From IMG/VR virus record IMGVR_UViG_3300038466_000013, positions 1 to 23,598 of that record: a stretch of 23,598 nt of DNA; one strand, 5' to 3'. Below are positions 15,571-23,598 of this stretch, piece after piece. Position 1 is the first letter of the stretch; each line of letters begins with the position of its first letter. The translations under genes were made by a program, and so were the position numbers. The notes under the pieces are model-generated. The model saw only the letters and a program-made list of their open reading frames with translations. It made no database searches and was not told where the DNA came from. The stretch comes from a virus.

Positions 15571-16130
15571 GTACAACGGCGCTCGCCTACAACGGCGACC
15601 TCGCCGGGCAGGCGGAATCGCGGCTGCTCCAGCAGTACCGGCTACCCGTCATTACGGCGCTCGTGCGGGCGCTTGCGGCCGGAACGCAACAACTGGAAGA
15701 CATCGCGTGGTCGGTCCTCACCTCGACCCTGGACGTCTGTTCAGCCCATCGCCTCGACCAGTGGGGCGACCTCGTGGGCGAGGCCCGGGGCGGACTGACC
15801 GACGCGCAGTACCGGGGCTTCATCCAGGCGCGCATTCTGGCCAATCGTTCCAGTGGCAAGCTTGACGAGATCATCCGGGTTGCTCAAATGATTACGGCGC
15901 CCTCCACGGTCGTGTCGCGCGAGCTTGCCCCAAAGCACCTCACGATCTACATCTATCGGGACTCGTTCCTCGAGCCTCGGATGCGGGGGCGTTGCGGTCG
16001 GCTCCTTCGGGCCATTCATCCTGCCGGGACGTTCCTGGAGATCATAGAGGTCCAGGCCGGATACTTTGGCTTTGCCGCCGATCCTGATGCGCTCGGGTTC
16101 AACGTCGGTGGACTTGCGAGGATCATGTAA
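15567..16130 (+). CDS. DUF2612 / Mu gp48-like baseplate protein
   Basis: This 187-aa protein follows the baseplate J gene, as Mu gp48-type proteins do. LDVCSAHRLDQWGDLVGEARGGLTDAQYRGFIQARILANRSSG (residues ~55-95, R.L..IG..VG..R.G..D..YR..I..RI..N.S.G) and the end AGYFGFAADPDALGFNVGGLA match DUF2612. Such proteins close the wedge and hold the tail fibre. Start is GTG at 15567 (GTGA overlap), and its stop overlaps the next ATG (TAATG). Confidence 0.82.
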   Translation: MSTTALAYNGDLAGQAESRLLQQYRLPVITALVRALAAGTQQLEDIAWSVLTSTLDVCSAHRLDQWGDLVGEARGGLTDAQYRGFIQARILANRSSGKLDEIIRVAQMITAPSTVVSRELAPKHLTIYIYRDSFLEPRMRGRCGRLLRAIHPAGTFLEIIEVQAGYFGFAADPDALGFNVGGLARIM

Positions 16131-17461
16131 TGCCAGCGACCCCAGGAACTCCCGACATCACGTTTAGCCCAGGGTCCTGGTGCGAAACAGGCGCCGCAGT
16201 CGCGAAGCCCGGGGACGCGCGGATCGGCAATGGCTGGGATCCTGGATTTCCGCCGCCCGCCGAAGATATAAACTACATCCTTCAGCAGATCTACCGCCTC
16301 GTCTACCAGGCCCCTCGCCGGTTTGTGTCCCCGGAAGCTGCTTGTACTGCGCTGGTCCATTCCAACGCGCCGGGCGGCCCAATCTACACCATTTGTAGCG
16401 TCGACGAAAAGGACACAGATCATCAGCCCGGAAGCGTCCACACGTCTACGGTTGGGCCAAACGATATCGTTTCCATCGCCTGCACCGGGGAATCTATCAT
16501 CGTCGCATCGCCGACCGCGCTTTCCGAGCGGGAGCGGGACTCCACGACGTTGATCCAGACTTTTGCCTTCGCCCATGCGGCCACGTCGGTTCAGCGGGTC
16601 GTCACGAATGGAACCTACGTCGTATGCGCCTACACCTCCGGCGGGCCGGCGTACTATATCGAGTGTTGGCTTCGTTCGACGGGCGCGACCCAGTGGCACA
16701 CGGACACCACGGTCGCCGTCAACGACATCGCCATGGACGCAACGCGCGTCTACCTCGTCAATGCGACGGGCGGCGGCGTGTTTGAGGCCAGGGCCATCGC
16801 GATCGCGACTGGCGCCTTCGCGTGGGCATATGACCACGGGGCGGACCTTGTTGCGGTCGCAACGGATGGACTCCGGTGTTATGTGTTTGGCGACGCAACC
16901 CCCCACGCCTCGCTTGCCAAGTTCCGGGGGTTGGTAGCATTCAGCGGCGCCGACGCGACAGGTGAAGGCGGAATAGCGGCGGATCTGACCGGAACCGCAT
17001 GGGACCAGATCCCTGCGATAGGCTCTACCGGCGCCATGTGTACTGATGGGAAGTCCGTTTGGGTCTGGGCATCCGGCGCCTTCGATGTACATCGGTTCGG
17101 CGCAGGGAACGGTAGGCTCATCGTCAGCGCCCATCCGTCTACAATCATCACTATTCCCAACGCCGGGAAGTTGGCGGTCGACCAAGACTACATCTTCGGG
17201 TGCGGCAGCACCGGAGACGTGGGGATGTGGGCTCTCGACAAGAACACCCTTCAACGCGTCTACCAGCGATTCCACGACGTCGGGAATGCGCTCTGCATCG
17301 CCTCCGACGGCGCCGCAGTGTACCAGGGCGCGCAGACGGGCGGCGGCGGCCTCACTCTTGTTCGACTCTACCGAGGCAACCGGGCCGGACTCTGGCGCCG
17401 GGTGGACCCCACGGACAACTTCCTGCCCTACCGGCAGATTCTCATTCCCCAGGAGGGATAG
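16130..17461 (+). CDS. Predicted beta-propeller virion protein
   Basis: No family is recognised, but the 443-aa sequence shows about seven repeated four-strand units, seen as V..VVTNGTYVVCAY (153-168), VNDIAMDATRVYLVNAT (197-213), LVAVATDGLRCYVFGD (240-255), TGAMCTDGKSVWVWAS (300-315), GKLAVDQDYIFGCGST (346-361) and NALCIASDGAAVYQG (386-400). This spacing fits a WD40/PQQ-like beta-propeller. Residues 1-60 (FSPGSWCETGAAVAKPGDA and a helix NYILQQIYRLVYQ) look like an attachment domain to the baseplate. Sitting between the wedge proteins and the long fibre, it is likely a fibre adaptor or receptor-binding protein. Third-codon-position A/T is more frequent than in the core tail genes, hinting at separate origin. 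The start overlaps the previous stop (TAATG). Confidence 0.6.
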   Translation: MPATPGTPDITFSPGSWCETGAAVAKPGDARIGNGWDPGFPPPAEDINYILQQIYRLVYQAPRRFVSPEAACTALVHSNAPGGPIYTICSVDEKDTDHQPGSVHTSTVGPNDIVSIACTGESIIVASPTALSERERDSTTLIQTFAFAHAATSVQRVVTNGTYVVCAYTSGGPAYYIECWLRSTGATQWHTDTTVAVNDIAMDATRVYLVNATGGGVFEARAIAIATGAFAWAYDHGADLVAVATDGLRCYVFGDATPHASLAKFRGLVAFSGADATGEGGIAADLTGTAWDQIPAIGSTGAMCTDGKSVWVWASGAFDVHRFGAGNGRLIVSAHPSTIITIPNAGKLAVDQDYIFGCGSTGDVGMWALDKNTLQRVYQRFHDVGNALCIASDGAAVYQGAQTGGGGLTLVRLYRGNRAGLWRRVDPTDNFLPYRQILIPQEG

Positions 17462-17464
17462 ACC

Positions 17465-19861
17465 ATGACCATCGAAGCCTCCAACATCCCGAACGTCTCG
17501 CTGTCGCAACTGCGGCAGATTCTCTCAACTCTCCGCGACATCAGCGGCGGCCCCATCGGAATGTGGGGCGCGTGGGAAGCGTACGTCCAGGCCCTCAACC
17601 TCCCCGCCGAGTGCCCGATCTTCGTCGGTTCGGCGGCTCCCTCCGGCGGGACCTACGGGAACGTGACCCTTGCACCGACCCAGTCCGCCGTCTACTTCCG
17701 AACCGGTGGGACCATCGACCAGTTCTTCAACTTCACCCTCGATGGTGGCTCCAACTGGAACACAATCGCAGCCCTTCCGATCGGCGTCGGGGATGTCACC
17801 CTGGCGCGTGGCCGGATCATCCGGGGAAGCGCGGCGGGTGTGGGCGAGGCCCTCGACCTGTCCAGCGCACGGGCCATGTCGATCGGAGACGGCAACGACC
17901 ACGTCCTCGTGCTCTCGGAGAACATCCCGGTTCCGGACGCAGGGAACTTCATCACGACCGACACCCTCGGCGGCCTCCTGGCGGCCCTCATCGCCATCGC
18001 AGGCGGGACCGACCAGGCGACCCGAGACTTCGCCGGCGGAACCCTCCAGGAACCCGCGCAGAACGCGACCCTCACGGCGGCGTTGGCTTCCCTGATGCTC
18101 GTCTCGCGCCTCAAGCTCGCCGACATCTGCATGGACCAGACGACTCCCCCGACGGCAGCGGCCGGGCGTGGGTGGGTCACAGGTTGTGCGGTCACCCAGA
18201 ACGGCGGCGGCAATGACAAGGTCAACGTCGCGATCGGAAGCGCGATCAACCACCTGGGCCAGTACATGCCCAGCGCCTCGACCCAACTCGTCATCGCAGT
18301 CAACGGGCTCGGTGGAATCCGGTGGGACATCATCGTTGTGCCGGCAGGTGGTACGGCGCCCGTTGTGCGGGTCGGAACGGTGATCACGACCGATCCCGTG
18401 CTGACGGCCGGAGACGTGCCCCTCGCCCGCATCCGGGTTCCGGACGTCGGCGGCGGTGCGGTCGTCATCCTGACGGCCCTCATCGACAACCTCCGGCAGA
18501 CCGAAGGCATCGACCCCACCAAGATCATGACGGGATACCCGGCGGAATACCTGACCGGCAACCCGGTGACATGCGTCCCGGCGGCGGGTACGGCCCCGCT
18601 GATGAAGTTCTCAGTCAACACCCTGACTCCAGCAGCGGGCGGGGCGTACAACGTCAACTCCATCGCTTTCCTTGAGGACGACTGCTGGGCATGGGCGGTC
18701 ATCGACAACGTGGCGAACCCTGCGACCTTCCAGGATTTCGCGGTTGGCGGCGGAAACGTCCGGACCACGGGCGCGGCCTCGTTCACCCTGGCGGCCGTCG
18801 AAGACGCGGCGCTCATCATGCGGAAGGGCGCCAACTACTTCGCCTTCCCCTTCTGCATCCAGGCCGGCTACCCCCCGACGCTGGCGCTTCCCGTCAATCA
18901 GATCTACATCGGCGATGCAGGCGGACACGCCGCTCCGGTGGCGATGGGCGGCGAAGGCGGGATCGTGGCGGCTGGCACGTTCACCGCGAAGCACCCAACC
19001 CTCCTTCCGTTCGCGATCTTTGGGCCGTGGGCGGTGGACGCCGTCGGGCAAGGTGGTCTTGTTGGCGGGGTAGGCGCTGCGACCGTCCAGGCCAACACCT
19101 TCGCAGTCGTCTACGACGACGGGACCGGGCTCTACATGACCCTGAACCTGTCCTCGACCATGGCGGGCGGGCTCTACACAGCCAACTTCCAGTGCTATCC
19201 CGACGCGGAAGCCGTCAACGACGCGGTGTACTTCGGCGCGGCTGCCAAGTTCGCGGACCTGTACTTCACGAACACGACTCCGGGCGTGTACGCCAACGAT
19301 TCAGTCGTCTGGGAATACTACTCCAGCGCGGGCGGCGGGACCTGGGTAGCCCTGCCCGTGGCGGGCGCGGCCGGCGAAGGCTACGACATGACCGATACGA
19401 CCGCCTACAACGGTCTCCGGCCCTTCCAGGCCGTCGGGAGTCTCACCTTCGCTCCTCCGGATCTTTGGACGACGACGATCATCAACGGTCAGCTCGGGTA
19501 CTGGATCCGGTCCAGGGTCACGGCTGCCCAGATCACCACGATCCCGATCCTCACCGACGAACATGCCGTCGTGGTCTCGGAGGAGCCCTGGCGCGTGCAG
19601 CACAACCTCAACGTCGACTGGATCCGCCTGTCCGACCAGTCCGCCGCGCTTCACGCCGCCGATGTCCACCTGCTCCTGTGGGACTCGTTCAGCGGGACGG
19701 GGCGGACCTTCACCTTCGCTGCCAACCGTCGGGCCCAGCGGATCACCTGTGCGGCGTGGGCGCTCACCGGAAACTCCTTGGTGTCCGCCTACGTCATCCA
19801 GGAGGCGGGCGCAAACGAACCGACGGGCGTGCTGGCGGAAGTCAAGGTCTCCTACACCTGA
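17465..19861 (+). CDS. Large tail fibre / receptor-binding protein
   Basis: This 798-aa protein is the largest here. It begins with a short helical attachment region (SQLRQILSTLRDISGGP), then a beta-rich mosaic. Residues ~234-350 (GWVTG ... GIRWDIIVVPAG ... VPLARIRV ... LIDNLRQ) resemble a beta domain found in phage baseplate and fibre proteins. Residues ~580-690 (VYFGAAAKFADLYF, VVWEYYSSAGGGTWVALPV, LGYWIRSRV) resemble the W-Y...G.W..L...YWIR carbohydrate-contact domain seen in baseplate-attached proteins. The C-terminus (VSAYVIQEAGA) is beta-rich too. AGGAGGG (17452-17458) precedes ATG by 6 bases. No chaperone gene or peptidase domain is obvious. Role as fibre is inferred from size and position. 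Confidence 0.72.
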   Translation: MTIEASNIPNVSLSQLRQILSTLRDISGGPIGMWGAWEAYVQALNLPAECPIFVGSAAPSGGTYGNVTLAPTQSAVYFRTGGTIDQFFNFTLDGGSNWNTIAALPIGVGDVTLARGRIIRGSAAGVGEALDLSSARAMSIGDGNDHVLVLSENIPVPDAGNFITTDTLGGLLAALIAIAGGTDQATRDFAGGTLQEPAQNATLTAALASLMLVSRLKLADICMDQTTPPTAAAGRGWVTGCAVTQNGGGNDKVNVAIGSAINHLGQYMPSASTQLVIAVNGLGGIRWDIIVVPAGGTAPVVRVGTVITTDPVLTAGDVPLARIRVPDVGGGAVVILTALIDNLRQTEGIDPTKIMTGYPAEYLTGNPVTCVPAAGTAPLMKFSVNTLTPAAGGAYNVNSIAFLEDDCWAWAVIDNVANPATFQDFAVGGGNVRTTGAASFTLAAVEDAALIMRKGANYFAFPFCIQAGYPPTLALPVNQIYIGDAGGHAAPVAMGGEGGIVAAGTFTAKHPTLLPFAIFGPWAVDAVGQGGLVGGVGAATVQANTFAVVYDDGTGLYMTLNLSSTMAGGLYTANFQCYPDAEAVNDAVYFGAAAKFADLYFTNTTPGVYANDSVVWEYYSSAGGGTWVALPVAGAAGEGYDMTDTTAYNGLRPFQAVGSLTFAPPDLWTTTIINGQLGYWIRSRVTAAQITTIPILTDEHAVVVSEEPWRVQHNLNVDWIRLSDQSAALHAADVHLLLWDSFSGTGRTFTFAANRRAQRITCAAWALTGNSLVSAYVIQEAGANEPTGVLAEVKVSYT

Positions 19862-19869
19862 TAGCCCCC

Positions 19870-19901
19870 GAGGGGCGAGACGGGGTATCCGTCCGCCCCT
19901 C
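19870..19901 (+). terminator. Strong hairpin after the fibre gene
   Basis: GAGGGGCG (19870-19877) pairs with CGCCCCTC (19894-19901), and GACGG (19879-19883) with CCGTC (19889-19893), giving 13 bp with one bulged A and a 5-base loop. It begins 9 bases after the fibre stop and is followed by CTTCCTCTG, not a clean T-run. It could be a partial terminator lowering expression of downstream genes, or an mRNA processing or stability signal. It is the strongest hairpin I saw in an intergenic gap; the 59-base gap otherwise holds only the next RBS. Confidence 0.6.
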
Positions 19902-19920
19902 CTTCCTCTGAGGCTCCCCC

Positions 19921-20745
19921 ATGGCCACCTACGAGACCGCCCTGCTACTCGACGCCCTGATCGCGGGCCGTGTGCCTTCCTTTGCCGAACAGACCGACGG
20001 ATCGAGCCACACGGGCGACCCGGCTACTACGGGGGCTCCTGCAACGGCGGGGGCTGGCGTGGGCCTCGTTGAGACGGGCGACACCAACGGAGCGATCCGG
20101 GCGCTTGTCGGGATTCAACTTCGGATGGACCCGAGTAAGCGAACCGCCCACGTCTACCCCGTCAACTACGTGGCGGGCGAGACTTACACCGTGACGATCG
20201 GCGGGAATGCTGTCGCAGTTGTCGGTGGCGGGACGTGGGCAGCGACGGTGGCGCTTCTGATCGCGGCGCTCCCGGGCGTCCCCGCAGCAGCGGCGCTGGT
20301 GACGTTCGCGGCGGCCAACACTTCTGATGGTGGCGGCGCTGGGACCGTGGACATTCTCGTCGTCCGCTGGAAGGCCGAGGCAGCAACCTCGATCGCTGCG
20401 ACGGCGACGGGTGCCGCAACAGTTCGATGCGTCGCTGATCCTGAGTCGTGTGATGCCCGGATCTATCTCTACAGAGGCGGGGCGGCCCGGGATACCGTGA
20501 CGCTGATGCCGACAGGATGGGCGTTAGAAGGGACGATCACGGGGATTACCTATCGCAATCTAGTCCGATCGATCCTCACAGCCGGGTGTGTTCGCGCCTA
20601 CGTCGAGATCTATGCCGTCGCTGGCGCCGCGGGCGATGGCGGGATGGTGATCTACCAGGATATACCGCTCACCACATTCGGCCGCACGCAAACCGAATCA
20701 GCAGGACTTCGGGCTTTCTGGGGTCCATGCGTCAACGAGGGATAA
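19921..20745 (+). CDS. Unknown distal virion protein with beta-domain insertion
   Basis: This 274-aa protein starts MATYETALLLDALIAGRVP and has no recognised family. Residues ~84-168 (GETYTVTIGGNAVAV ... ALLIAALPGV ... SIAATATGAA) match the beta-hairpin, helix, strand pattern of the two inserts in the cement-like protein at 3166. The rest is beta-rich with a C-terminal GLRAFWGPC. GAGG lies 8 bases before the ATG, in the leader GAGGCTCCCCC. Its place among fibre genes suggests a tail-tip or fibre-accessory role, but no catalytic motif is visible. Confidence 0.6.
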   Translation: MATYETALLLDALIAGRVPSFAEQTDGSSHTGDPATTGAPATAGAGVGLVETGDTNGAIRALVGIQLRMDPSKRTAHVYPVNYVAGETYTVTIGGNAVAVVGGGTWAATVALLIAALPGVPAAAALVTFAAANTSDGGGAGTVDILVVRWKAEAATSIAATATGAATVRCVADPESCDARIYLYRGGAARDTVTLMPTGWALEGTITGITYRNLVRSILTAGCVRAYVEIYAVAGAAGDGGMVIYQDIPLTTFGRTQTESAGLRAFWGPCVNEG

Positions 20746-22035
20746 ATGCCCGATCTATCGGCGGTATCGCATCCTTTTTCTGGCTCCGTCGCGGTTGGCG
20801 CCGCAGCCTTCACCGAGTTCATCCTCGGCCCGCTGCAACGGGAACTCTGGGTGTGGCTCGGTGATACGACCGGGACCCGTGAGACGGGGCTCGTCAGTCA
20901 CCTCGGATCGGATGCCGGTTCGCCCTTCCCGGTCAAACAGTGGGTCCGGGTCTGGTGTCGCGATCCGTATTTCATCCAAACTATCGGAACGAGCGTCTTC
21001 ATCAAAGCCCTGGATGCCGCGCAGACCCTGTACTATTCCGACTGCATTCAGGGTGCAGAAGGGCCAGGGCTTCCCATCGGTGCCGCGACGAAGGCCGCGC
21101 AAACCGACGGCTCCCAGCTTGCCCGCGCCATGCTCAACGACGGCGCCGGGAAGCAGGTTCAAGCGCTCGGTGAGGTTTCCGGGAAGCTCCAGTGCGACGT
21201 GAAGACGTCGGCGCTTCCGACGGGCGCAGCTGCAGAAGCGACCCTCGCCAAGGTTGCGCTGGCATCTCAACTTCCGGCTGCACTCGTCGGTGGAAAGCTC
21301 TCTGTGACGGACCCAACCGCCCTGCCGTTGCCAGCCGGCGCCGCCACGGATTCCGAGGTGAAGAAGCTCGTCGCCGAGTCCACCTTCACCGCCTGGGCTG
21401 ACGTGAAGGCCAGCACGCTGGCGAAGGCCTCGTCGCAGACCGACGGCGGCCAGAAGACCCAGGTGGTCGATTCCAAGGGCGCCGACGTCGGCGGAAACCT
21501 CGCCAACCTCGACGCGAAGTCGTCCGCACTGGCGCAAGACGCCACCCTCACCGGCGGAAGCCAGGTGACCAAGGTTCATTCCGGCGATGGGGTGGTAATC
21601 ACGGCTTCGGGTTCCGCGCTGGACGTCGAGGCTGGGTCAGTCGTTACTGCCATCAACACGGAAGGGGACACGGCTTACGACATTTCCTGGGGGCCTGCCG
21701 ACGACGGCACGACCCAGCATGAAATCGCTACCGGGCTGGCAGTTGGTACTGTCGTCTGGATCATCGGTGTGTTCGGACTGCTCTCGGCCTCGGCCGGTGG
21801 TGCGGCTACCTGGGTGGTTCATGCGTCGGCGACAACGGGATGGACGATCGGCGACGCCTCCGAGCATTACGAATCGGCGGCCATTCCAGTGGCCGATCCG
21901 ATCACGAGTTCGATTCCGACAACGCCGGCCATGTTCAAGCTCACGGCATCCGGAAAGCTGTTCGTCCGCATCGTGCCCAACGCCGGGACGACGGCCGGGG
22001 CTGCCCAGGTGTTCGTCGCACGGAGGCGGCCATGA
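20746..22035 (+). CDS. Unknown distal virion protein with LPxGAA repeats
   Basis: This 429-aa protein begins directly after the previous stop. The N-terminal ~100 residues form a globular region (FTEFILGPLQRELWVWLGD, YFIQTIGTSVFIKALD). The middle is repetitive: LPIGAAT (109-115), LPTGAAA (157-163), LPAGAAT (195-201), with TDGSQ and TDGGQKTQVVD copies, a pattern common in linker regions of phage fibre-type proteins. The final ~150 residues (DISWGPADDGTTQHE, KLFVRIVPNAGTTAG) are beta-rich. Role as a distal tail or fibre protein is inferred from position and repeat character. Confidence 0.6.
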   Translation: MPDLSAVSHPFSGSVAVGAAAFTEFILGPLQRELWVWLGDTTGTRETGLVSHLGSDAGSPFPVKQWVRVWCRDPYFIQTIGTSVFIKALDAAQTLYYSDCIQGAEGPGLPIGAATKAAQTDGSQLARAMLNDGAGKQVQALGEVSGKLQCDVKTSALPTGAAAEATLAKVALASQLPAALVGGKLSVTDPTALPLPAGAATDSEVKKLVAESTFTAWADVKASTLAKASSQTDGGQKTQVVDSKGADVGGNLANLDAKSSALAQDATLTGGSQVTKVHSGDGVVITASGSALDVEAGSVVTAINTEGDTAYDISWGPADDGTTQHEIATGLAVGTVVWIIGVFGLLSASAGGAATWVVHASATTGWTIGDASEHYESAAIPVADPITSSIPTTPAMFKLTASGKLFVRIVPNAGTTAGAAQVFVARRRP

Positions 22036-22187
22036 CCCGCCCAACGAACCCTCCCGACACGGTCCGGCCAGAGCAGCCAGCCGCCACGTCCACCGCCACA
22101 CCTTCCTGGATCTTTCCCGTCGATGCCTACGGCACGATTGGGGAGCTTGTGGATCTCGTCTATGACACCGGACTAACGGTGATATAG
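22032..22187 (+). CDS. Small unknown protein, 51 aa
   Basis: A 51-aa ORF, MTRPTNPPDTVRPEQ..., is coupled to the preceding gene by an ATGA overlap and has GGAGG (22023-22027 region) just upstream. The first half is Pro/Thr/Ala-rich and disordered; the second (SWIFPVDAYGTIGELVDLVYDT) could form strands. There is no transmembrane segment, so it is not a holin. It may be a small baseplate or fibre-associated protein. The product is too short for any firm call. Confidence 0.55.
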   Translation: MTRPTNPPDTVRPEQPAATSTATPSWIFPVDAYGTIGELVDLVYDTGLTVI

Positions 22188-22195
22188 GAGTTTCA

Positions 22196-23200
22196 ATGTC
22201 TCTCACCCAACCCGTCTGGACCCGTCTCCCCCGCGTGGGGGCCACCGCCGGAAATGGAAAAGCGTGGGCCACCGGCCTCGCGGCTTCCTTCGGGTCCGCC
22301 GTGGACTTTGAGGGCAACGCGCGGACCCCGGGCGTAGGCGTTCAATGGTCGGTGTCGAGCACGCATTATGACGACCCCGCTGCAAACGACGGCGCGGTCT
22401 ACGTGATCCCTGGCGCGGGATCGTCGGCGTCCGGTGGCGTGATCATCGGAGCGGCGGCAGGTGCTCCGACGCCAGTGATGGGGCTCAACAATGCGTTCGC
22501 CGCTTCCTGCCCGATGATCGGCTCCGGTATCGACGTGGGCGGTGTCGTCGGCCTGTGGTCGTCCAACGCCGTCAACCAGCCCCTTGGCGCTGGGAAGAGG
22601 TTCCTTGGTTTCAGCCAACTTTCCTCGACAATGGCGGCTGGGTTGACATGGACGGACGTCTGGACGTGCGCCGATGCCATTTTCCTCGCCGTCAAACTCG
22701 CTGGTGTTGTCCATCTTGGCGCCTCCCACGGGCTGATCGATCCGCGAACGTCAGTATATACGCCGGCTGACGAAGAGGCTGATCGCCGCGTGTATGCAAC
22801 TGCCACGCGCGGCAATTCCGCCGCCGCCCAGACAACTTGGGATTCTTCCAACGTCGGCGGGGTGATGGCGCATACCGCGGGGGCAGGCGGCAAGTGTTTT
22901 TGCAACACACCGGGGGCGACCCCCGTCGTCAATCTTCCACTCGCCCACGCAAATTGGATCAACACGGGGGTTACTTTGCTGCTTGGTAATTGCGCACGGT
23001 CCAAGAGCGGCAGATACATCGGCGAAGAGGTCGGGATGCACGACACAACCGACGGTTCCCGCTTGGGAACGCTTCGCGGCATCCGTATCGGGTGGAACGG
23101 CCTTCACGGACAGCGCGTTCCCGCAGTCGGCGATCTTGAAGGTTGGCTCGTCGGTACGTCGGATACTGTGGCTGGGCTGACATGGTTTTTGTCCGCGTAG
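22196..23200 (+). CDS. Unknown distal virion or fibre-tip protein
   Basis: This 334-aa protein starts MSLTQPVWTRLPRVGATAG and is not recognised. The composition is Gly/Ala/Ser-rich and beta-type (GAVYVIPGAGSSASGGVIIGAAAGAP, GVTLLLGNCARSKSGRYIGEEVG), with segments such as IGWNGLHGQ near the C-terminus. It shows more A/T at third codon positions than the tail genes. AGGAG (22186-22190) precedes ATG by 5 bases. Its place just before the lysis genes suggests a last structural gene. An enzyme is not excluded. Confidence 0.6.
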   Translation: MSLTQPVWTRLPRVGATAGNGKAWATGLAASFGSAVDFEGNARTPGVGVQWSVSSTHYDDPAANDGAVYVIPGAGSSASGGVIIGAAAGAPTPVMGLNNAFAASCPMIGSGIDVGGVVGLWSSNAVNQPLGAGKRFLGFSQLSSTMAAGLTWTDVWTCADAIFLAVKLAGVVHLGASHGLIDPRTSVYTPADEEADRRVYATATRGNSAAAQTTWDSSNVGGVMAHTAGAGGKCFCNTPGATPVVNLPLAHANWINTGVTLLLGNCARSKSGRYIGEEVGMHDTTDGSRLGTLRGIRIGWNGLHGQRVPAVGDLEGWLVGTSDTVAGLTWFLSA

Positions 23201-23208
23201 GAGATCCC

Positions 23209-23394
23209 ATGGCTACCATCCAGCTTTCCGACAATGTCCCCGCTCCCGTCGCCAAGGCGATCCAGGATTTTGCACGCAAGGTCGAAGCCGTCCACGATCC
23301 CGACGGGGAGAAGGACGGGCGTGTGTCTGCCGCTGAACTCCTTGCCGTGGTGGACAGCGCCGTCGCCGTCGTTGTCGCTATACGGAGTGCCTGA
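23209..23394 (+). CDS. Small EF-hand-like protein preceding the endolysin
   Basis: This 61-aa protein has one helix (~11-29), a loop DGEKDGRVSAAE at residues 32-43, then a second helix (~41-59). The loop satisfies an EF-hand or dockerin-like calcium site: acidic residues at positions 1, 3 and 5, Gly at 6, Val at 8 and Glu at 12. The ATG at 23209 follows TAGGAGATCCC. The preceding open frame from 23143 is shadow. Its stop overlaps the endolysin start (TGATG). Hydrophobic residues near the end (AVVDSAVAVVVAIRSA) are too few and interrupted for a convincing holin. Confidence 0.65.
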   Translation: MATIQLSDNVPAPVAKAIQDFARKVEAVHDPDGEKDGRVSAAELLAVVDSAVAVVVAIRSA

Positions 23395-23598
23395 TGATCG
23401 ACCTCTCCCCCTTCACCGCCCGCCTCGGTTGCGACCTGGCCGCACTCCAGGCCGTCATCGTCGTCGAGTCCGCGGGTTCGGGGTTCGGCCCCGACGGCTG
23501 TCCGACCATCCGCGTCGAGGCCCACGTGCTCTGGGAGCGAGTCGGCGCGAAGCTCGGCAACACCACCCAGGTCGACGCCGCCTTCCGGGTCCTTGGCC
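23394..23598 (+). CDS. Endolysin, N-acetylmuramidase (DUF3380-type), 3' truncated
   Basis: The visible 68 residues match the start of the N-acetylmuramidase family (PF11860): LAALQAVIVVESAGSGFGPDG, then TIRVEAHVLWERVG. The Glu of VES is the likely catalytic acid. Such enzymes cut the peptidoglycan glycan chain and release progeny. The ATG at 23394 shares its A with the upstream TGA. The ORF runs off the window end; the C-terminal cell-wall part is not seen. Confidence 0.82.
   Translation, partial: MIDLSPFTARLGCDLAALQAVIVVESAGSGFGPDGCPTIRVEAHVLWERVGAKLGNTTQVDAAFRVLG

Follow-up and report, generated by a model that had tools for sequence, protein, structure and literature searches.

A 61-residue orphan protein with an EF-hand-like loop encoded directly upstream of a phage muramidase

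A small gene overlapping a muramidase gene

The window analysed here, 23,598 bases long, is an entire virus record. It represents part of a contractile-tailed phage and encodes proteins of the head (portal, head morphogenesis, head protease, major head protein) and of the tail (sheath, tape measure, baseplate). Near its right end, on the plus strand, lies a gene (positions 23209–23394) for a protein of 61 amino acids (aa) in which a helix, an EF-hand-like loop and a hydrophobic helix are predicted to follow each other. Its ATG is preceded at a distance of four bases by the ribosome-binding site GGAGA (23200–23204, plus strand), the G+C content by codon position (0.77/0.43/0.70) shows a coding-like pattern, and this open reading frame (ORF) is a real gene. 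A TGATG stop/start overlap (23392–23396, plus strand) with one shared base leads to the next gene (23394–23598, plus strand), which encodes a muramidase (endolysin) of the PF11860 type and is cut by the contig end, so that the record contains 68 residues from the N-terminus of this enzyme. The match to PF11860 (E = 7.8e-9; 36.5 bits, above the gathering cut-off of 22.3) covers only profile positions 1–45 of 175 because of the contig end, and comparison with PHROGs assigned the same frame to the endolysin family phrog_1224 (E = 5.9e-14). The one-base overlap and the two family matches confirm that the small gene directly adjoins a gene for a muramidase, to which an earlier note on this DNA had called it directly coupled. 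The right end of the record falls inside the muramidase gene and the genes 3' of it are missing from the record.

The baseplate genes are followed by five large genes (16130–23200; 443, 798, 274, 429, and 334 aa) that precede the lysis module; none of the five matched a PHROG at E ≤ 0.001 and they probably encode tail fibres or adhesins. The last of them, the 334-aa gene directly upstream of the 61-aa gene (22196–23200, plus strand), also gave no pattern match in an IMG/VR scan and serves here as context only. Between the 429-aa and the 334-aa genes there is a 51-aa ORF (22032–22187) that has a four-base overlap with the upstream stop and whose longer frame had no PHROG match. In our own gene list, 22 of 29 gene junctions in the window measure at most 11 bases and 12 of 29 are overlaps, counts that include four listed starts other than ATG, GTG, or TTG and that become 19 of 25 and 10 of 25 when those are left out. 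Tight gene spacing is a habit of this genome and indicates no special bond between the 61-aa gene and the muramidase gene, and because close spacing is common in the window, their overlap and neighbourhood are weak evidence for a joint function.

Loop, predicted fold and searches for relatives

EF-hand loops of 12 residues have D, N, or S at positions 1, 3, and 5, G at position 6, a hydrophobic residue at position 8 and E or D at position 12. Residues 32–43 of the 61-aa protein (DGEKDGRVSAAE, D32 to E43; codons at 23302–23337, plus strand) fit this rule at all positions except 3, where Glu34 stands for Asp, Asn, or Ser. A relaxed EF pattern with Glu permitted at position 3 therefore matches the loop, whereas the PROSITE-type pattern fails there. 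The relaxed pattern and a stricter form with Gly6, D.[DNSE].[DNS]G, were composed after the loop had been seen and the loop was picked from the whole window, so that the chance figures flatter it: among 200,000 composition shuffles the relaxed pattern was present in 177, the PROSITE-type pattern in 46 and the stricter form in 5, and among 574 deduplicated background ORFs of the window and loci L002–L050 (which could share up to 60 bases with each other) the strict form was found once, in the 61-aa gene itself within a longer frame of 83 aa, the relaxed form four times and the PROSITE-type pattern once. Measured with these post hoc patterns, the loop is above chance for one protein. On the exit side, L44, V47, V48, and A51 obey EF-hand spacing; on the entry side, this spacing is broken by Pro31, the residue immediately preceding the loop, and by the early end of the first helix, which in the model stops at residue 28. 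The same residues might also be read as a 14-residue loop starting at D30 (DPDG..DGRVSAAE), which would be a loop of the DPDGDG type lengthened by two residues.

No Pfam EF-hand or dockerin model matched the 61-aa protein at E ≤ 10 with the HMMER filters on, a negative result limited by the fact that these filters discard most matches above about 0.1. Under the same filters, EF-hand_5 and EF-hand_1 were detected at E ≤ 1 in 20 of 20 proteins from a comparison family, which were favoured in this respect by having been found via an EF pattern. The proposal that D32–E43 fits an EF-hand site thus stands as far as the letters of the loop are concerned, which are present and rarer than chance, and does not stand with regard to Glu at position 3, Pro31 and the missing Pfam EF-hand match. 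From its sequence, we regard the segment as a genuine but imperfect EF-like loop. The variant proposal of a dockerin-type site was abandoned: dockerin type I has two duplicated calcium loops, and the 61 aa contain one loop only and give no Dockerin_1 match at E ≤ 10.

The best AlphaFold2 model, calculated from the single sequence, consists of two helices (residues 12–28 and 41–60) with the loop between them and has a mean pLDDT of 88.3, two of the five models reaching only 63–65. Together with the ORF, this model agrees with the earlier description of a two-helix protein of 61 aa. When the model was submitted to Foldseek, the best E value was 1.8 and no EF-hand chain was present among the best 50 of 82 matches, those titled calmodulin being, by their chain length, partner channel fragments. 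A VIA search gave, among the 50 matches listed, generic helical hairpins with Z up to 6.8. A control model, made for a comparison-family protein whose loop is better formed, likewise had no EF hand among its 10 matches, so that the negative structure searches for the 61-aa protein say little. Structure prediction, which had been put forward as a check, places helices on either side of the loop and finds no EF-hand counterpart among the structure matches listed, the control behaving alike.

KD hydropathy in a 19-residue window reaches its maximum of 2.08 at residues 40–58, and the usual KD cut-off for a membrane segment is 1.6. By this cut-off, the hydrophobicity of the last helix would suffice for a membrane segment. 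The hydrophobic stretch contains Asp49, the tail after it is short with a single Arg, and no holin family of Pfam, PHROGs, or NCBIfam matched the protein.

Searches for homologues of the 61-aa protein were carried out in samples of sequence collections with the window itself as the sole positive control. In phages, tblastn gave no match to the full protein at E ≤ 1 or to a 42-aa core at E ≤ 10, and BLAST against plasmids at E ≤ 10 gave none, the low-complexity filter being on in two phage searches and in the plasmid search. Peptide-pattern scans produced 217 candidate stretches in IMG/VR and 592 in genome_contigs, none of which was confirmed; PHROGs and NCBIfam yielded no family and the PDB sequences no match. 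When whole records were searched, 0 of 49 virus records matched at E ≤ 1, and the matches in 2 of 18 genomes at the same threshold (best E 0.567) included no relative. Two further genome matches, with E values of 0.0085 (1 of 369 genomes) and 0.0098 (1 of 385) and located inside frames of 343 and 315 aa, were attributed to chance for that many genomes. A Pfam match to At5g48480-like_C (E = 0.017), which at 15.9 bits stayed below the cut-off of 27, was likewise taken as chance. Within the collections searched, the 61-aa protein is most likely a lineage-specific orphan, and as no homologue was found, conservation of any of its features cannot be shown.

Related muramidases and a family of EF-loop proteins in other phages

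Relatives of the muramidase were found in 46 viral, 18 genomic, and 518 phage records, the last all with less than 60% identity; when IMG/VR was scanned again with a muramidase alignment, the 46 loci obtained lay on contigs already known and added nothing. Around the 46 viral muramidase loci, from 900 bases before to 1800 bases after on both strands, no small EF-loop protein was detected by the patterns used, neighbours being readable in 45 of the 46 (L042 being the exception), and the plus-strand ORFs of at least 40 aa at the 18 genomic loci contained no EF loop. The sole viral locus with an EF-type pattern (L005) was rejected: the pattern belongs to the final 159 codons of an ORF that extends to the edge of the stretch read, and not to a small protein. 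Looking for the pair in relatives, another check proposed earlier, therefore turned up a small EF-loop protein in 0 of 64 related-muramidase loci by these patterns. An IMG/VR search with a DNA pattern for the loop followed by the muramidase (DG.[VI/M][ST-type]..E, then ES.G.GF) found nothing in the GAC version, which does match the window; the GAT version had one match, which lies inside a single 276-aa frame and was taken as chance. The genes 5' of the viral muramidases vary, encoding membrane-like proteins, tail proteins, or nothing clear, and proteins that by eye look membrane-bound occur there with 107–120 aa in L009–L012 and with 184 aa in L018, L020–L023, and L025. At four loci of bacterial genomes (L227, L228, L230, and L233), a muramidase-like stretch lies inside long frames of 708–940 aa; the muramidase domain may be part of large proteins in some bacterial genomes.

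A broader DNA pattern, in which an EF loop is combined with a nearby TGATG, matched at least 119 loci in IMG/VR (L052–L170; for example L060, 1890–2213, minus strand), and in 105 of them an ORF of less than 200 aa encodes an EF loop and, after it, a hydrophobic stretch (KD > 1.6). All 105 proteins belong to one BLAST-connected family with 47 clusters at 80% identity. Most members have about 100–120 aa, some are longer, and their layout begins with a loop near the N-terminus, for example DADGDGVVTDDE, which is followed by a long helix and then by one or two hydrophobic segments. The EF content of this family is partly built in, as the pattern demanded an EF loop; position 3 of the loop is occupied by D (55 proteins) or N (50 proteins) in the 105 and never by E, although the pattern allowed E. 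The TGATG required by the pattern was not the in-frame stop of the EF-loop gene in any of 80 loci checked. The holin model Phage_holin_3_6 was listed for 4 of 20 aligned members (best E 0.00032), and four family proteins compared with PHROGs had at most a weak relative of unknown function, phrog_27150 (E 1.2e-6 to 0.024). Neighbours were scanned for 30 cluster representatives with long flanks (140/150 same-strand neighbours) and tallied over the whole set, not per locus: the 25 commonest Pfam-type families listed include Phage_lysozyme (6), GTA_holin_3TM (4), Peptidase_M15_3 (4), and Glyco_hydro_108 (1), and the 25 commonest PHROGs listed include three Rz-like spanin families (3 each) and the baseplate hub family phrog_150 (9).

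A whole-protein search with one member detected 13 phage records, a fairer sample than the IMG/VR loci. These records represent nine distinct phages if the four Melnitz isolates are treated as a single phage and the duplicate of HTVC008M is disregarded, and one record was viewed for each (L236–L244). The EF-loop gene lies in the neighbourhood of lysin, holin, or spanin genes in six of the nine, which are not six independent cases, as CRP-1 and CRP-9 are close relatives. It follows a putative lysozyme gene with a four-base overlap in CRP-207, lies one gene away from an L-alanyl-D-glutamate peptidase gene in DC31, directly 5' of a putative endolysin gene in CRP-9, 5' of spanin and endolysin genes in CRP-345 and 5' of genes for a holin and a GH108 enzyme in CRP-810, and overlaps a putative endolysin gene by one base in Roseobacter phage CRP-1 (gp56). 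After a baseplate hub assembly gene it is found in HTVC008M, before the tape-measure gene, and in Melnitz-3, before a hypothetical gene; the family gene of DLP_6 is also preceded by a baseplate hub assembly gene and is followed by a lysozyme gene. Eight of the nine proteins contain the relaxed loop and four the full PROSITE-type pattern, and two segments above KD 1.6 are present in six and one in three. The protein of Stenotrophomonas phage DLP_6 (L244, 2501–2947) is a weak relative (E 5e-4) that keeps the hydrophobic part without the EF loop, and to judge from it at least one lineage seems able to do without the loop. All nine records annotate the gene as "hypothetical protein". The publications listed for EF-hand proteins, phage lysis, holins, cyanophages, and Roseobacter phages, mainly in their titles and the beginnings of their abstracts, name no EF-hand protein in a phage lysis module and do not describe the EF-loop family. 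An excerpt of one paper reports an EF-hand protein among the orphans of phiAC-1 (PMC5795418), and an excerpt of another deals with holin and endolysin in CRP-822-type phages and does not contain the term "EF-hand" (PMC12629253).

Alignment of the 61-aa protein with this family by hhalign was confined to 15 loop columns with a probability of 7.9%, and BLAST against the 105 members aligned pieces of 10–35 residues around the loop with a best E of 0.015, a value computed in a database of just those 105 proteins. On this evidence, the 61-aa protein does not belong to the family; by analogy, it may nevertheless work like one, with a loop followed by a hydrophobic helix and a gene beside an endolysin gene.

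Possible roles and comparison with named systems

Our tentative preference is to see the 61-aa protein as a small accessory protein of the lysis module, perhaps membrane-bound, with a possible cation loop, and the findings are compatible with the accessory role suggested in the earlier note. The gene would be a lineage-specific part of the late lysis module whose translation directly precedes that of the muramidase, the two probably being coupled via the TGATG overlap. Its product would form a short helix-loop-helix whose last 19 or so residues are hydrophobic enough for a location in or on the inner membrane, and would most likely act as a membrane-associated lysis accessory that resembles a holin or antiholin or helps to release the lysin. 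A divalent cation bound by the acidic loop may stiffen the hairpin, a structural or fortuitous role of the loop being more likely than a calcium switch. The position and overlap with the endolysin gene, the KD value of 2.08, a loop rarer than chance and the two-helix model are consistent with such an accessory protein, as are, by analogy, the EF-loop proteins beside lysis genes in CRP-207, DC31, CRP-9, CRP-345, CRP-810, and CRP-1 and the holin model listed for 4 of 20 aligned family members, whereas the lack of a homologue, Asp49 in the hydrophobic helix, a family resemblance restricted to 15 loop columns and the DLP_6 relative without a loop argue against it.

A close rival, to which we give nearly the same credence, is that of an ordinary small late phage protein with an unrelated function, in which DGxVSxxE is a polar interhelical turn with Ser40 as helix N-cap and binds no specific metal. 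Glu as the third loop residue, Pro directly before the loop, the absence of a Pfam EF-hand match, a model that is a plain two-helix hairpin and the failure to find the pair of loop protein and muramidase again all agree with such a hairpin, which accounts less well for the rarity of the strict pattern in shuffles (5/200,000) and for the fact that G37, V39, S40, E43, L44, V47, V48, and A51 obey the EF-hand spacing rule. Holins have one to three transmembrane spans, and the 61-aa protein could itself be a single-span holin or antiholin, which we consider rather improbable: its place just 5' of the endolysin gene, where some muramidase relatives (L009–L012; L018, L020–L023, and L025) have membrane-like proteins as judged by eye, and its hydrophobic C-terminal helix would suit this function, but Asp49 lies within the span, no holin family matched and the span is followed by a short tail with a single Arg. 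The real holin of this phage may sit in the missing stretch 3' of the muramidase. A calcium sensor gating lysis, as the earlier note had imagined, is very unlikely; the resemblance of the loop to an EF hand and the parallel EF-loop family in lysis neighbourhoods of other phages speak for it, but the claim found no support beyond an imperfect loop in a protein without relatives or a Pfam match, the pair was absent from all 64 muramidase loci, and there is a single site, whereas EF hands usually pair.

In a broader and quite speculative scenario, small membrane proteins of phage lysis modules would repeatedly have been fitted with EF-hand-type calcium loops, through which the divalent-cation level, for example its change when the inner membrane starts leaking, tunes the timing of lysis; the family of CRP-1, CRP-810, and DC31 would then be the widespread case and the 61-aa protein a minimal one with a single span that arose independently. 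Taken alone, the 61-aa protein is a modest orphan and the weight lies in the large EF-loop family to which it led. This family of cultured phages is a better place than the window protein to test the calcium idea, and if the EF loop of the isolate family binds calcium, it would connect cation levels with the time at which phages lyse their cells, in a way open to direct tests with phages isolated on cultured hosts.

Among named systems with which the 61-aa protein may be compared, PA1-LRP of Pantoea phage PA1 is a hypothetical protein that aids the endolysin in cell lysis and has a hydrophobic region; the abstract on it mentions no calcium loop (PMC11538084). Members of the EF-loop family such as CRP-1 gp56 resemble the 61-aa protein in being small, in having one EF-type loop with a hydrophobic helix after it and in being encoded beside an endolysin gene, which in CRP-1 is overlapped by a single base just as the muramidase gene is in the window, but differ from it in their usual size of 100–120 aa, their long helix and their one or two hydrophobic segments. 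With the EF-hand loops of PF00036 and PF13202, the 61-aa protein has D1, D5, G6, V8, S9, E12, and a hydrophobic residue at position 13 in common, and it deviates from them in E at position 3, the Pro just before the loop and the presence of a single loop. Staphylococcal CHAP endolysins such as LysGH15 contain an EF-hand-like calcium site inside the enzyme. In these endolysins the calcium loop tied to phage lysis is thus part of the lytic enzyme, whereas in the window it would reside in a separate protein.
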